From assembly GCA_017983955.1 (NCBI GenBank), contig JAGOAJ010000009.1:1-64000 (forward strand): a stretch of 64,000 bases of DNA, given 5' to 3'. Made by a program: the position numbers and the translations under genes. The notes under the pieces were generated by a model. It saw only the letters and a program-made list of their open reading frames with translations, had not been told where the DNA came from and did no database searches. Of the stretch, positions 19,836 through 24,042 are shown piece after piece; the first letter of the stretch is position 1, and each line of letters begins with the position of its first letter. The DNA comes from Burkholderiaceae bacterium. GTDB taxonomy: Bacteria > Pseudomonadota > Gammaproteobacteria > Burkholderiales > Burkholderiaceae_B.

Positions 19836-21278
19836 TTAGGAATTCAGGCTGCGTATCGCAGTTTTTAGACTAGCAAAGTCAAACTGTTTACGGGCAGGAA
19901 TACATAGCAGCATAATGGCTGATACGGCCACTGGCACCAGGGCTGCCAACAAAAAGGACTCCAACAGGTAGTCCAGCTTGGCCCCTGGCGCTGGAAATAG
20001 GGCAATCCCAGCAGCTAGACCGCATAGGGTGCTGACAATAGCAATTAGCCCGTTATAACGGCGACTGAATAATCCAAAAAACACCGGAAATGTGGCAGCC
20101 GAACAAAATAGGTCGGCCAGCAGAAACAGATACAACACACTGTAGCCTTGGGCAGCAACGATCAAGGCCGGTATAGCCAGTACGAAAATCAGGATGCGGG
20201 ACCATGCCATGACGCGCCCCTGTCCCATATGCGGATACCTGCGGCGTATATCAACGGCAACCAGGCTAGATACGGCATTGATGGCGGTGTCGGCACTGCT
20301 CATGACCAGCGACAAGCCCAGTGGAATCAAGGCAATACAGAACCAGACCGGAAGGCCCGGCATGACGACGGTAAACAGCGCGACCGAGCTGTCGCCGCTA
20401 TAGCCCAGTCCTACAAAGGCTAAACCAAACGCCCCCATAATGAAAATAATCGGCCCAGCTAATAAACCGGCTAACGAAAACCCGGTGCGCATGGCCGGTG
20501 TGTCGCGTGCGGAATAAATACGCTGCCAATTGCCCTGGTGGAATAGCCCGGTCAGTAAGATAGCGACAAAAAAGGTGAGGCCAGCCTTGATGCCAATAGG
20601 GTCAGACAGCTGCAGCAATTGGGGCGCGCGCTCTTGTAATCCATTCAGTACAGGGCTTAGACCGCCCACCGCTTGCCAGCCCAGATACAACAAGATCAAC
20701 AGCAACGGCACAATAATCACCATTTGTACTTTATCCGTGAATATTGTCGCGCGTAATCCACCAAAAGAGGTGTAGAGTAGGGTGGAGCCCATGACAATAG
20801 TGGCTGTCGTCCATAGGGGAATGGGGGCGATCAAAGCCACCAGTTTGGAAATGGCGGTAATTTCGGCGGTCAGCGTGATGAACATATAGAACATCATGAT
20901 CAGCAGGATCAGGCTGTACATGGGCCGTCCGTAGCGATGCATGATGAATTCGGTCAGCGTGTGACCCTGGGGCATGACTTCGCGCATGCGTTTGCCCAGA
21001 GGGATCATGGCCAGACGCGGGGCGATGGCTCCTAGGGCGTAACCTATGACCGCGCCCAAGCCCCCCCATGTGGCAGCCTGGGCAGGTGCAAATAATATCC
21101 AGGCGCCTAGTGACGTTGCCAGCAGCGTCAACACAGTGGCCGAGGCGGACTGGCTATTGCGGGCCACTAGGTAGTCTTCAAGATTGTCGCGGGAGCTGCG
21201 GGAATACCACATGCCCGCCAGGGTAAAACCGCTGGCGAATACCAGCAAATAGATAAGCGTAATTGTGCTGTCTAGCAT
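19836..21278 (-). CDS. Sodium:solute symporter family transporter under TPP riboswitch control
   Basis: This 480-residue polytopic protein of the SSS family has about 13 membrane helices and SSS signature segments such as DKVQMVIIVPLLLILLYLGW and SVVMSSADTAINAVSSLVAV (the latter approximate in its first residues). Its 5'UTR is a TPP aptamer whose 3' end contains the ribosome site GAAGGAAAGGA, so expression should fall when thiamine diphosphate is plentiful. This argues for import of thiamine or a precursor. An SSS carrier (ThiV) has been proposed in TPP regulons by comparative genomics; I cannot show that this is its ortholog. Confidence 0.85.
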   Translation of the reverse strand: MLDSTITLIYLLVFASGFTLAGMWYSRSSRDNLEDYLVARNSQSASATVLTLLATSLGAWILFAPAQAATWGGLGAVIGYALGAIAPRLAMIPLGKRMREVMPQGHTLTEFIMHRYGRPMYSLILLIMMFYMFITLTAEITAISKLVALIAPIPLWTTATIVMGSTLLYTSFGGLRATIFTDKVQMVIIVPLLLILLYLGWQAVGGLSPVLNGLQERAPQLLQLSDPIGIKAGLTFFVAILLTGLFHQGNWQRIYSARDTPAMRTGFSLAGLLAGPIIFIMGAFGLAFVGLGYSGDSSVALFTVVMPGLPVWFCIALIPLGLSLVMSSADTAINAVSSLVAVDIRRRYPHMGQGRVMAWSRILIFVLAIPALIVAAQGYSVLYLFLLADLFCSAATFPVFFGLFSRRYNGLIAIVSTLCGLAAGIALFPAPGAKLDYLLESFLLAALVPVAVSAIMLLCIPARKQFDFASLKTAIRSLNS

Positions 21279-21286
21279 TTTATCCT

Positions 21287-21375
21287 TTCCTTCGCCGGCA
21301 TTATCCGGATCAGGTTCTAAGGGTTACGGCGTCGGATGCGCAGAATCTCAGCCCAGTACAGGGCTCCCCCAGGAA
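21287..21375 (-). promoter_or_regulatory. TPP riboswitch controlling the symporter
   Basis: Read on the minus strand, the element has GGGGGAGCC, then GGCTGAGAT, ACCCTTAGAACCTGATCC and GGATAATGCCGGCGAAGGA, the conserved THI-box order. P1 can form between TTCCT and AGGAA at its ends (plus-strand 21371-21375 and 21287-21291). The 3' P1 strand is part of the symporter's ribosome site, so ligand binding would block translation directly. Confidence 0.95.
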
Positions 21376-21482
21376 CAGGTGGCAAGCTTAAGGGAGATGT
21401 GCTTGGCTTGTCAATGCGTGGTGATGCGCTGTCGGTCTTGTAGGTACCTTGGTCGTTGTTTGTAGTGTTGTTGGTTCTTTAT

Positions 21483-21564
21483 GTCGCTTCGCCCTTTCGT
21501 GGCAGGCTCCTTACTCGGTCGCCCGCTACGCGAAGCGACTGACGTAAGGACCTACCACTACGGG
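21483..21564. repeat. Intergenic palindromic element A
   Basis: A long imperfect inverted repeat: the arm at 21492-21522 pairs with that at 21535-21564, with roughly three quarters of positions matching (core TGGCAGG/CCTACCA, CCTTAC/GTAAGG, GTCGC/GCGAC). An alternative perfect pair, GTCGCTTCGC (21483-21492) with GCGAAGCGAC (21530-21539), overlaps it, so two mutually exclusive folds are possible. It lies between the two riboswitches. Confidence 0.6.
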
Positions 21565-21662
21565 CTAGGCGTGGATTCAGAATAGCTTGCTAACGACGGT
21601 TGGATTGAAACTGACGCATCGCCTGTGACATCTTGCCGCTGCCCGCTAGGCAGGCAAACGTT

Positions 21663-21709
21663 GCGCTCACGGCAGCACCCTTTGCGCAGCGGGGGTGCAG
21701 AGTGAGTGC
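21663..21709. repeat. Intergenic palindromic element B
   Basis: GCGCTCAC (21663-21670) pairs with GTGAGTGC (21702-21709), and GCACCC (21675-21680) with GGGTGC (21693-21698). The right half, GGGGGTGCAGAGTGAG, resembles a stretch at 49540-49560, so it may be a dispersed repeat family. Confidence 0.5.
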
Positions 21710-21808
21710 GACGGTTGGCGGCCGATTCTACTTAGGAAACAAAAGTCCGCAGCGGTTGACTACCACCCCTACAGATTTCCCCATGAGTATGCTATGGTTA
21801 AAAAAGAG

Positions 21809-21899
21809 TGACACGGGGTGCCTAGATTTGCTTAGTGCAGACATGGCTGAGAAAACACCCGTCGAACCTGATCCAGTTAATACTGGCGAAGGGATGTCA
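21809..21899 (+). promoter_or_regulatory. TPP riboswitch controlling the SDR-LLM operon
   Basis: Conserved THI-box segments appear in order: CACGGGGTGCC, GGCTGAGAAAACACCC, GTCGAACCTGATCCAG and ACTGGCGAAGGGATGTC. P1 pairs TGACA (21809-21813) with TGTCA (21895-21899). A possible extended -10 (TGCTATGGT, 21790-21798) lies just upstream; TTGACT at 21756 is too far from it to act as its -35. Confidence 0.95.
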
Positions 21900-21956
21900 G
21901 CCGTTCTGGCACGCGGGTATGTCCCGCTTATCCGTACCTTCGCCTTTTTACAAGGC
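21885..21956 (+). promoter_or_regulatory. Expression platform: anti-sequestor and ribosome-site sequestor
   Basis: GGCGAAGG (21885-21892, inside the aptamer) can pair with CCTTCGCC (21937-21944). When the aptamer is occupied, the freed GCCTT (21942-21946) can instead pair with AAGGC (21952-21956), which contains the ribosome site AAGG of the SDR gene. That predicts a translational OFF switch. A T5 run after CCTTCGCC means a transcription terminator is an alternative reading. Confidence 0.6.
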
Positions 21957-21961
21957 ATGGC

Positions 21962-22735
21962 ATGACACAAGCACTGAAAATTAACGAACAAGTCGTTCTG
22001 GTCACTGGTGGTGGCCGTGGTCTGGGGCAGCATGTTGTCCAGGCTTTTCTGCGCGAAGGCGCGCGGGTCGTGATTAATTATCTGAATAGTGCAGCATCTG
22101 CCCATGCCCTGGCGGCTACAGCACCCGGACGGGCTATTGCTTTGCAGGCGGATGTGATTGATGCCCAGGCGGTGCAACGCATGCTGGATCAGGCGGCTAC
22201 CCATTTTGGCGCTCCAGTGACTACGGTAATCAACAATGCACTGCCTGCATTTTCCTTTAATGGCGAGGCTCGCGATCACGCTGATGTCTTGCGTTGGGAA
22301 AGTCTGGACCAGCAGTTCCAGGGCATAGTCAGGGGGGCATTGAACACCACCCAGGCGGCGTTGGCCGGCATGAAAGAATTAGGCTTTGGACGTATAGTCA
22401 ATGTAGGTACAAATCTGTTTCAAAACCCGGTGGTTCCTTACCACGACTATACGGCCGCCAAGGCAGCGTTGCTTTCGCTGACACGAACCTTGTCTCATGA
22501 CTTGGGCCCTCAGGGGATTACCGTCAATATGGTATCGGGGGGCTTGTTGCGTACCACCGACGCATCGGCCGCTACACCGGAAGCAGTTTTTGATCTGATC
22601 GCCGCCAGCACGCCTTTGCGACGTGTGACCACGCCTGCTGAATTTGCGGATGCCGTCTTGTTTTTTGCCTCGCCCTGGTCGCGCTCGGTGACAGGCCAGA
22701 ATTTGGTGGTTGATGGCGGGCTGGTGAAAAACTAA
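21962..22735 (+). CDS. SDR family oxidoreductase in a TPP-riboswitch operon
   Basis: This 257-residue short-chain dehydrogenase has the cofactor motif VTGGGRGLGQHVVQ at about 14-27. The active-site Tyr-Lys is in YHDYTAAKAALLS (Y about 160, K about 164), preceded by NVGTNLF. Instead of the usual catalytic Ser, NVGTNL shows Thr/Asn near that position. A RTTDAS and NLVVDGGL C-terminus fits FabG-like reductases. It follows a TPP aptamer and its last base is shared with the start of the LLM monooxygenase gene, so the two act together. No known thiamine biosynthetic enzyme is of this type; the substrate is unknown. Confidence 0.88.
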   Translation: MTQALKINEQVVLVTGGGRGLGQHVVQAFLREGARVVINYLNSAASAHALAATAPGRAIALQADVIDAQAVQRMLDQAATHFGAPVTTVINNALPAFSFNGEARDHADVLRWESLDQQFQGIVRGALNTTQAALAGMKELGFGRIVNVGTNLFQNPVVPYHDYTAAKAALLSLTRTLSHDLGPQGITVNMVSGGLLRTTDASAATPEAVFDLIAASTPLRRVTTPAEFADAVLFFASPWSRSVTGQNLVVDGGLVKN

Positions 22736-24042
22736 TGTCTAAACATGCCGGTAGTCAGCGCCAGTTGCACATTAATTTATTTATCCACGGCTGTGGCCAT
22801 CACCGCGCCGCTTGGCGACATCCAGACTCAGCCGTAGAACGTCTAGGCGATATTAGCTATCTTGAAGAGCTGGCATTAACCGCCGAACGCGGCAAGCTGG
22901 ATGCGGTGTTTTTTGCCGATGGCCAGACTGCTGATAACGTCGCTGATGGCCCACGCTGGTTTCTGGAACCCTTGACTGCCATGGCGGCTATGAGCCGTGC
23001 TACCCAACATATAGGGTTGATCAGCACAGTATCCAGCACGTTTTTTACCCCATTTCATGCGGCTCGCATGGTGGGGTCGTTAGACCATATTTCGGGTGGG
23101 CGTATCGGTTGGAATGTGGTCACATCCATGTTCGATGCCGAAGCTCGTAACCATGGGTATACCGCCATGCCCAGCCATGCCCAGCGCTATGCGCGTGCCG
23201 AAGAGTTCATAAGCGCCGTCCTGGGCTTATGGGATAGCTGGGCCGCCGATGCACTGACTTTGGATAGGCAGGGGAATTATGCTGATCCGGCCAAGGTTCA
23301 GCCCTTGCATCATCAAGGCGAGTATTTCCTGGTCGACGGGCCCTTGAACATGCCAAGGCCACCTCAGGGGCATCCAGTGTTATTCCAGGCCGGCGCGTCC
23401 GAGCAGGGGCGTGAGTTGGCGGCACGCTATGCCGAGGCTATTTACGCCGTCGCTTACGATCTGGGCGCGGCCCAAGAATACTATCGTGATGTCAAATGCC
23501 GGGTAAAGGCAGCAGGTCGTCGTGTGGATGTGCCAATTATGCCTGGCCTGGTCACCTATATAGGCTCTACTCAGGCCGAAGCCCTGGCCAAGCAGCGTGA
23601 ATTGGACTTGCTGTTGCCGACGGACGCATCGCTGCGCCAACTGGCTGGTTTTATTGGTCAGGACTGCATGGATTGGGAGCTGGATGCACCTGTGCCTGCG
23701 TTGCCTGCATTACAGGACTTCACTGGGCCTAAAGGTCGTTACGCGACGATATTACGCATTATTCAAACCGAGCAACCTACAGTGCGCCAGTTGCTGGGCC
23801 GTTTGGCCGCTGGCGGTGGTCACTGCACCATGGTGGGTACGCCGGAAAAAATAGCTGATCAGATGGAGCACTGGTTGATGAATGAAGGTGCGGATGGTTT
23901 CAACCTGATGCCCCCATCCCTGCCGGGAGGCATAGATGATTTCGTCGATCACGTTATACCGGTGTTGCAAAAGCGCGGATTGTTTCGCCATGAGTACAGC
24001 GCAAGCACACTACGAGGCCATTTGGGTTTGCCTGTGCCGTGA
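22735..24042 (+). CDS. LLM-class flavin-dependent monooxygenase (NtaA/SnaA/DszA group)
   Basis: The 435-residue protein belongs to the luciferase-like FMN-dependent monooxygenases of the nitrilotriacetate monooxygenase/DszA branch. It shows HINLFIHGCGHHRAAWRHPDS at the start (shortened here), the conserved SGGRIGWNVVTS segment at about 120-131 and ARYAEAIYAVAYD in the middle. These enzymes oxidise C-N or C-S bonds with reduced FMN supplied by a partner reductase. It is coupled to the TPP-regulated SDR, so it may work on a thiamine, thiazole or pyrimidine-related compound. No flavin reductase gene is adjacent. Confidence 0.9.
   Translation: MSKHAGSQRQLHINLFIHGCGHHRAAWRHPDSAVERLGDISYLEELALTAERGKLDAVFFADGQTADNVADGPRWFLEPLTAMAAMSRATQHIGLISTVSSTFFTPFHAARMVGSLDHISGGRIGWNVVTSMFDAEARNHGYTAMPSHAQRYARAEEFISAVLGLWDSWAADALTLDRQGNYADPAKVQPLHHQGEYFLVDGPLNMPRPPQGHPVLFQAGASEQGRELAARYAEAIYAVAYDLGAAQEYYRDVKCRVKAAGRRVDVPIMPGLVTYIGSTQAEALAKQRELDLLLPTDASLRQLAGFIGQDCMDWELDAPVPALPALQDFTGPKGRYATILRIIQTEQPTVRQLLGRLAAGGGHCTMVGTPEKIADQMEHWLMNEGADGFNLMPPSLPGGIDDFVDHVIPVLQKRGLFRHEYSASTLRGHLGLPVP

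Follow-up and report, generated by a model that had tools for sequence, protein, structure and literature searches.

Two divergent TPP riboswitches heading a transporter, a monooxygenase and a reductase: a candidate module for pyrimidine salvage in a predicted pyrimidine auxotroph

Two TPP riboswitches placed back to back in one intergenic region raise the question of which part of thiamine metabolism is served by the genes on either side, a sodium:solute symporter (SSF) gene and an operon coding for an SDR oxidoreductase and an LLM-class FMN monooxygenase. The region, positions 21279-21961 of the window (the whole stretch of 64,000 nucleotides that was analysed), is the exact gap between two divergent start codons, at 21278 on the minus strand and at 21962 on the plus strand. 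Scanning of the whole window with cmscan and Rfam 15 at gathering thresholds returned three matches, two TPP riboswitches and one tRNA; both aptamers exceed the gathering score of RF00059 (54.3 bits), cover the complete model (1-105 of 105) and point outwards, the left one to the symporter gene and the right one to the SDR gene and then to the LLM gene (Table 1). This covariance-model search, on both strands, bears out the initial annotation, which had proposed two TPP aptamers of opposite orientation in one spacer; likewise, the transporter and the two oxidoreductases that it had placed at their sides are recovered as matches to PF00474, NF006393 and TIGR03860.

Table 1. Features of the divergent locus, in window coordinates.
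Feature	Position	Strand	Basis
TPP riboswitch aptamer, symporter gene	21270..21380 (21380..21270)	-	RF00059 73.4 bits, E 1.5e-12
TPP riboswitch aptamer, SDR-LLM operon	21804..21911	+	RF00059 70.6 bits, E 7.2e-12
Sodium:solute symporter (SSF), ThiV-like importer candidate	19836..21278	-	PF00474 70.6 bits, cut-off 22.8
SDR oxidoreductase	21962..22735	+	NF006393 434 bits, cut-off 292
LLM-class FMN monooxygenase, NtaA/DmoA family	22735..24042	+	TIGR03860 522 bits, cut-off 279.7
AGGAU, 3' strand of helix P1 and likely symporter ribosome-binding site	21282..21286	-	Rfam alignment; function inferred
Aptamer segment GGCGAAGG, first arm of the alternative pairing	21885..21892	+	pairs with 21937-21944, fold of 21880-21975
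CCUUCGCC, second arm of the alternative pairing	21937..21944	+	exact complement of GGCGAAGG
Hairpin GCCUU-uuuac-AAGGC over the likely SDR ribosome-binding site	21942..21956	+	folds

Relatives were collected by scanning species genomes for the LLM protein, which gave 265, and the best 80 were kept; together with the window they make up 81 loci, and the conservation seen across the 80 is partly selection, because the best of the 265 were chosen. From these loci, 21 aptamers were used to build a covariance model (R1), which matches them by construction and gave 139 matches over the 80 loci and the window, two of them weak (29 bits). The aptamer helices covary, with 10 of the 15 pairs altered on both sides and 99.2% of the cells paired among 136 distinct sequences; this covariation is partly the difference between left and right switches, and the alignment had been fitted to the model. 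Chance matches were ruled out by score, conservation and covariation, and the RNA elements appear, on well-confirmed sequence grounds, to be ordinary members of the known TPP riboswitch family. The own genome (G000; 3.32 Mb in 62 contigs, 94.5% complete) contains no other TPP riboswitch at E ≤ 0.001 in two genome searches, which scored 150 of 204 and 76 of 203 first-look candidates; the congener G092 (99% complete, and the sole congener in the family set) contains exactly two, at the same genes.

The proteins were assigned by family. The symporter scores far under the cut-offs of the PanF and PutP equivalog models, and SiaT is absent among its PDB matches. NF006393 (PRK08642), whose curated cut-off the SDR exceeds, is a model of 3-oxoacyl-ACP reductases, and the correctness of this functional name is doubted. 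The stop codon of the SDR gene is overlapped by the start codon of the LLM gene, whose product matches TIGR03860 over its full length and above the curated cut-off. The active site of classical SDR enzymes is formed by Ser-Tyr-Lys; here Tyr163 and Lys167 are kept in 70 of 70 aligned sequences, and the place of the serine, assigned via alignment to 4nbu, is taken in all 70 by Thr150, so that the classical triad was not found. At least 97% identity was reached at 212 of 435 positions of the LLM protein (79 sequences) and at 118 of 257 positions of the SDR (70 sequences), counts that include the first methionine as set by script and refer to loci chosen by similarity.

The thiamine genes of the host suggest where such proteins may act. 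ThiC (PF01964) has no match in the own genome at E ≤ 0.001 and none in the congener at E ≤ 1e-20; no match in either genome was found for TenA (TENA_THI-4) at E ≤ 1e-10, nor, in a search that covered 27 genomes, for the ThiB family at E ≤ 1e-20. ThiG is found in both; in the own genome ThiG is adjacent to ThiD on contig 61, and contigs 2 and 44 code for two TMP-TENI proteins (ThiE or TenI). Since ThiC, TenA and ThiB were not found in the congener either, their absence is not explained by draft assembly alone, and the bacterium is predicted to be a pyrimidine auxotroph. The unusual point is that the two aptamers make up the complete set of TPP riboswitches found in this genome and head a conserved transporter-monooxygenase-reductase module in a predicted pyrimidine auxotroph in which TenA was not detected.

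The reading preferred here, probable but well short of certain, is that of a TPP-repressed module for the import and conversion of a source of HMP, formed by a ThiV-like symporter, the FMN monooxygenase and the SDR. The three genes would constitute one module supplying the HMP half of thiamine to a cell in which ThiG, ThiD and ThiE/TenI-family proteins are present and neither ThiC nor TenA was detected: the symporter would import a pyrimidine vitamer, which the monooxygenase and the SDR would then turn into HMP for ThiD. The pyrimidine (HMP) role is one that we infer, and the substrate and the order of the reactions are guesses. Among the solved relatives of the LLM protein are MoxC/YtnJ, riboflavin lyase, DszA and monooxygenases acting on nitrilotriacetate, EDTA and dimethyl sulfide. 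Relatives in the NtaA/DmoA family cleave C-N or C-S bonds with the help of FMNH2 and O2; nitrilotriacetate monooxygenase converts an amine to an aldehyde and a smaller amine, and riboflavin lyase acts on a vitamin. The monooxygenase of the module might oxidatively cleave a pyrimidine-CH2-N (or -S) bond, with formation of a pyrimidine aldehyde that the SDR might reduce to HMP; AmMP, FAMP or thiamine are candidate vitamers with a pyrimidine-CH2-N bond. That SDR and LLM represent an oxygen-dependent route to HMP that dispenses with ThiC and TenA, as part of a TPP-regulated import-and-oxidise pathway spread over two phyla, is a more tentative proposal, and a doubtful one on present evidence. If the import-and-oxidise route were true, thiazole-competent bacteria could live without ThiC; a salvage role would also provide a function for an SDR that databases list among the fatty-acid enzymes and for an LLM protein without an assigned substrate. 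The module thus represents a compact and conserved candidate for another HMP salvage route, with its own switches as reporters.

A TPP switch is compatible with any thiamine precursor, and the module might accordingly salvage the thiazole half, or supply intact thiamine, and not the pyrimidine. Thiamine genes were counted in 51 module genomes, namely the own genome and those of 50 of the 80 loci, which have no completeness value and include some MAGs: ThiC is over the cut-off in 37 and missing from 14, ThiG is present in 50, and a ThiD-like kinase in all 51, over the curated cut-off in 42, the own genome included. The finding of ThiG in 50 of the 51 indicates that thiazole can be made; this and the 14 genomes from which ThiC is missing argue against a thiazole role, while the import of intact thiamine needs no two dedicated oxidoreductases, and this alternative is considered improbable.

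In the count over the 81 loci, tblastn pieces had to reach 50% identity, and no judgement was made on the SDR of L041, which runs off its contig; an aptamer is present on 70 of 71 symporter genes and on 62 of 71 SDR genes, and on both the symporter side and the SDR/LLM side in 52 loci. The latter are divergent in 45 cases, 36 of which share one spacer of less than 700 bp and nine of which have a gap of 1.65-4.4 kb; in the other seven, from Halomonas, the symporter lies downstream of LLM. The wide gaps (L003, L005, L006, L012, L013, L015, L025, L026 and L031) belong, among the best 80 relatives, to Oceanimonas, Oceanisphaera and one Aeromonadales MAG, and in L003 the two switched genes are separated by an ORF that, read by eye, resembles dihydroorotase. 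The symporter of the Halomonas loci (L051, L053, L057, L059, L064, L067 and L072) is encoded on the opposite strand and has a separate aptamer. Clustering of the ORFs of the 80 loci gave clusters of 66, 59 and 49 loci for LLM, SSF and SDR, respectively, the next cluster comprising 13; no fourth gene widely common to the 80 loci and no flavin reductase gene within the conserved module were seen by this clustering.

In the family set, the symporter occurs in 67 of 250 genomes and LLM in all of these 67; LLM occurs in 71, four of which have no symporter match. In G174 the LLM match is interrupted by an in-frame TAG, and in G187 by an in-frame TGA and an in-frame TAG, corresponding either to decaying genes or to assembly errors. 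The constant presence of LLM with the symporter and the double switches in 52 of 81 loci suggest one pathway, and they count against a different arrangement, in which the symporter imports ready HMP (or thiamine) and the SDR-LLM pair does some other job at low TPP, such as repair of damaged thiamine or clearing of antivitamins. This arrangement seems unlikely, although Pelagibacter ThiV, according to the accessible part of PMC11452348, takes up HMP itself with high specificity; moreover, in the actinobacterial loci (Glaciibacter, Cryobacterium, Nocardiopsis, Micrococcaceae) the aptamer sits on SDR or LLM and the stretch contains no SSF, a case of the SDR-LLM pair without the symporter. In favour of the preferred reading, the operon of the Glaciibacter locus L055 adjoins genes of the thiazole branch, read by eye as thiE, thiO, thiS, thiG and thiF, together with an aptamer-led ykoE and ykoD, and ThiC was not found in the corresponding genome.

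The presence of LLM was compared with the loss of ThiC. Among the 250 family genomes, 71 have LLM, 42 are without ThiC and 18 combine both; 22 of the 42 ThiC-less genomes were assigned as the complement of the ThiC-positive ones, and the tables were compiled by hand. The odds ratio between LLM and ThiC loss is 2.2 both for all 250 genomes (p 0.038) and for 211 good genomes (p 0.054); it rises to 5.1 (n=202, p 0.0008) without nine genomes below 1.5 Mb, a size filter chosen after nine ThiC-less genomes had been seen at 0.7-0.9 Mb, and to 5.5 (n=200, p 0.0011; counts 13, 51, 6, 130) when ThiG is also required, a test that leaves out 50 of the 250 genomes. At the genus level, scored as any versus any, p is 0.0033 (counts 11, 7, 3, 18), and shuffling within genera gave 13 observed versus 11.7 expected, which is not significant (p 0.21). 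The link of LLM with ThiC loss is significant between genera and not within them, is weak without the size filter, and provides support, not proof. After filtering, the 13 ThiC-less genomes with LLM comprise eight without a TenA match and five with one, and a TenA match is present in three of the six ThiC-less genomes without LLM. The module is therefore not confined to auxotrophs, because 37 of the 51 module genomes have ThiC and five of these 13 ThiC-less genomes have TenA.

The riboswitches of 38 selected genomes were also counted. Exactly two TPP riboswitches are present in 17 of the 18 ThiC-less genomes with LLM, and one in the eighteenth, which is 72% complete; both switches are at the module in 16 of the 17, whereas in G142 one of the two is on another contig. 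In all seven ThiC-bearing module genomes that were scanned, ThiC too is closely preceded by a TPP match; two of these matches exceed the gathering score and five fall below it (for G136 and G158 the position of ThiC was taken from the same assemblies under the handles G011 and G029). The elements under the gathering score, at 39-50 bits in G051, G053, G070, G106 and G136, would therefore be missed by a scan limited to gathering thresholds.

As to the mode of control, each leader would be a translational TPP-off switch, and repression by TPP may be expected at both. On the right-hand side, the aptamer segment GGCGAAGG would pair with CCUUCGCC without TPP, which would keep the ribosome-binding site of the SDR accessible; when TPP is present, GGCGAAGG would stay within the aptamer, so that GCCUU folds onto AAGGC and the site is closed. 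Indeed, a fold starting at 21880 has GGCGAAGG and CCUUCGCC paired with AAGGC free, and folds starting at 21900 or 21830 have GCCUU and AAGGC paired ahead of the SDR start codon; in the minimum-energy structure computed for the complete right leader, the hairpin is present, and both the canonical aptamer and the alternative pairing are absent. Among the 62 SDR leaders that bear an aptamer, CCTTCGCC is found in 29, versus a mean of 0.13 in mononucleotide shuffles, and CCTTCG in 38, versus 1.4; the longest complement to the 3' part of the aptamer beats shuffled leaders (p ≤ 0.05) in 32. A similar stem, with at least four perfect pairs and placed over a purine-rich site, occurs in 25 of 42 leaders with the CTTCG core, and its arms vary together (CCUCA/UGAGG, GCCUU/AAGGC, GCCCU/AGGGC). 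Leaders from Halomonas, Alcaligenes and Methylobacillus gave no sign of the alternative-pairing element, and the Halomonas SDR leaders are without the CCTTCG element. On these sequence features the aptamers and the right-hand switch appear well supported. The complete aptamer and, in the right leader, the alternative pairing and the hairpin are shared with the translational TPP riboswitch of E. coli thiM/thiC; the present system differs in having two back-to-back copies for divergent genes, the left one of which has no separate platform.

The conservation of this platform in many leaders speaks against a further alternative, in which the aptamers are real, the control of SDR-LLM is incidental and the enzymes serve fatty-acid reduction and nitrilotriacetate-type catabolism. 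Such a general-metabolism reading has the database names, and only these, on its side, together with the fact that no aptamer was detected on the SDR/LLM side in 18 of 18 Achromobacter loci; against it stand the aptamers on 62 of 71 SDR genes, in two phyla, and the congener, which keeps the right aptamer (88 of 96 identical) and the right leader (57 of 61), though the middle of the spacer has changed (identity at 93 of 153 positions, besides 247 gapped columns). It is regarded as very improbable. The left aptamer is identical to that of the congener at 105 of 107 positions. The Achromobacter loci are L008, L016, L017, L027, L029, L032-L034, L038-L041, L043, L046, L047, L049, L058 and L066, and nine of the 18 are without an SDR beside LLM.

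The left-hand leader is shorter. The sequence leading into the symporter gene reads AGGAU-AAA-AUG, with only AAA between AGGAU and the start codon, so that the ribosome-binding site would be covered by P1 itself: TPP would stabilise P1, whose 3' strand would double as the symporter ribosome-binding site. This short form occurs in four of the 70 symporter genes that bear an aptamer, namely in the window, L048, L050 and L078 (the last via an extrapolated start), and the remaining 66 have 46-150 bases from aptamer to start. The mechanism on this side is read from position, because a conserved complement to the aptamer was not found in symporter leaders (p ≤ 0.05 in 4 of 70) and shuffled sequences fold as well as the left RNA does (z 0.23).

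As regards previous work, the founding survey of Rodionov and colleagues, dated 2002, reportedly names thiV and an oxidoreductase. That survey lay outside the literature search, which found no report connecting a TPP riboswitch with a pairing of SDR and LLM monooxygenase, nor any connecting one with the NtaA/DmoA family, and an earlier mention is possible; a search for 'oarX' gave no paper, and as a candidate the salvage route has no earlier description in the literature searched. The LLM protein resembles the FMN monooxygenases of the NtaA/DmoA family by its full-length TIGR03860 match and differs from them in lying behind a TPP aptamer. The salvage of FAMP and AmMP in Bacillus by ThiXYZ, YlmB and TenA is alike in outline, with a TPP-regulated importer and two steps to HMP; hydrolases act there, whereas a monooxygenase and a reductase would act here, and TenA was not found in the own genome. 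In the part of PMC10470507 that is available, the salvage enzymes discussed are few, namely TenA and YlmB, and it is for these two that the Bacillus comparison draws on this source.

The TPP-regulated sodium:solute symporter gene thiV is a known member of the thiamine regulon, as stated in the available portion of PMC2211319, and in that of PMC11452348 ThiV is given as the likely importer of HMP in Pelagibacter and pyrimidine (HMP) auxotrophy as the most common vitamin B1 auxotrophy. Since thiV is known from these sources, the statement of the initial annotation that none of the genes is a classical thi gene is not supported as it stands, the left gene being of that kind by family and switch. 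In its accessible text, PMC10881298 describes clusters that have thiV and ThiG but no ThiC. The symporter of the window resembles ThiV of Pelagibacter and others, as presented in the portions of these papers available, in its SSF family, in the TPP switch upstream and in a host without ThiC but with ThiG, a likeness of family and switch, not of sequence comparison; unlike ThiV, it is paired with an SDR-LLM operon. The accessible part of PMC12452182 concerns only same-gene riboswitches, and the words 'thiV', 'oxidoreductase', 'monooxygenase' and 'symporter' are absent from the main text of PMC3766115 in the portion available.

The spacer between the aptamers was inspected for further elements. 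Terminators were rejected as the expression platform: three terminator-like sites were found versus 1.3 in shuffles, none of them between aptamer and gene. A consensus scan gave no sigma-70 promoter in the spacer, and a third known RNA was likewise rejected, with no further Rfam match up to E 0.1 either for the spacer or for the palindrome that it contains. The latter, at 21470-21580, is strong and imperfect (z -4.9 on one strand and -6.5 on the other), is single-copy across the window and four short stretches of the own genome, and sits within about 247 bases for which the congener has no equivalent; perhaps it represents a REP-like insertion.
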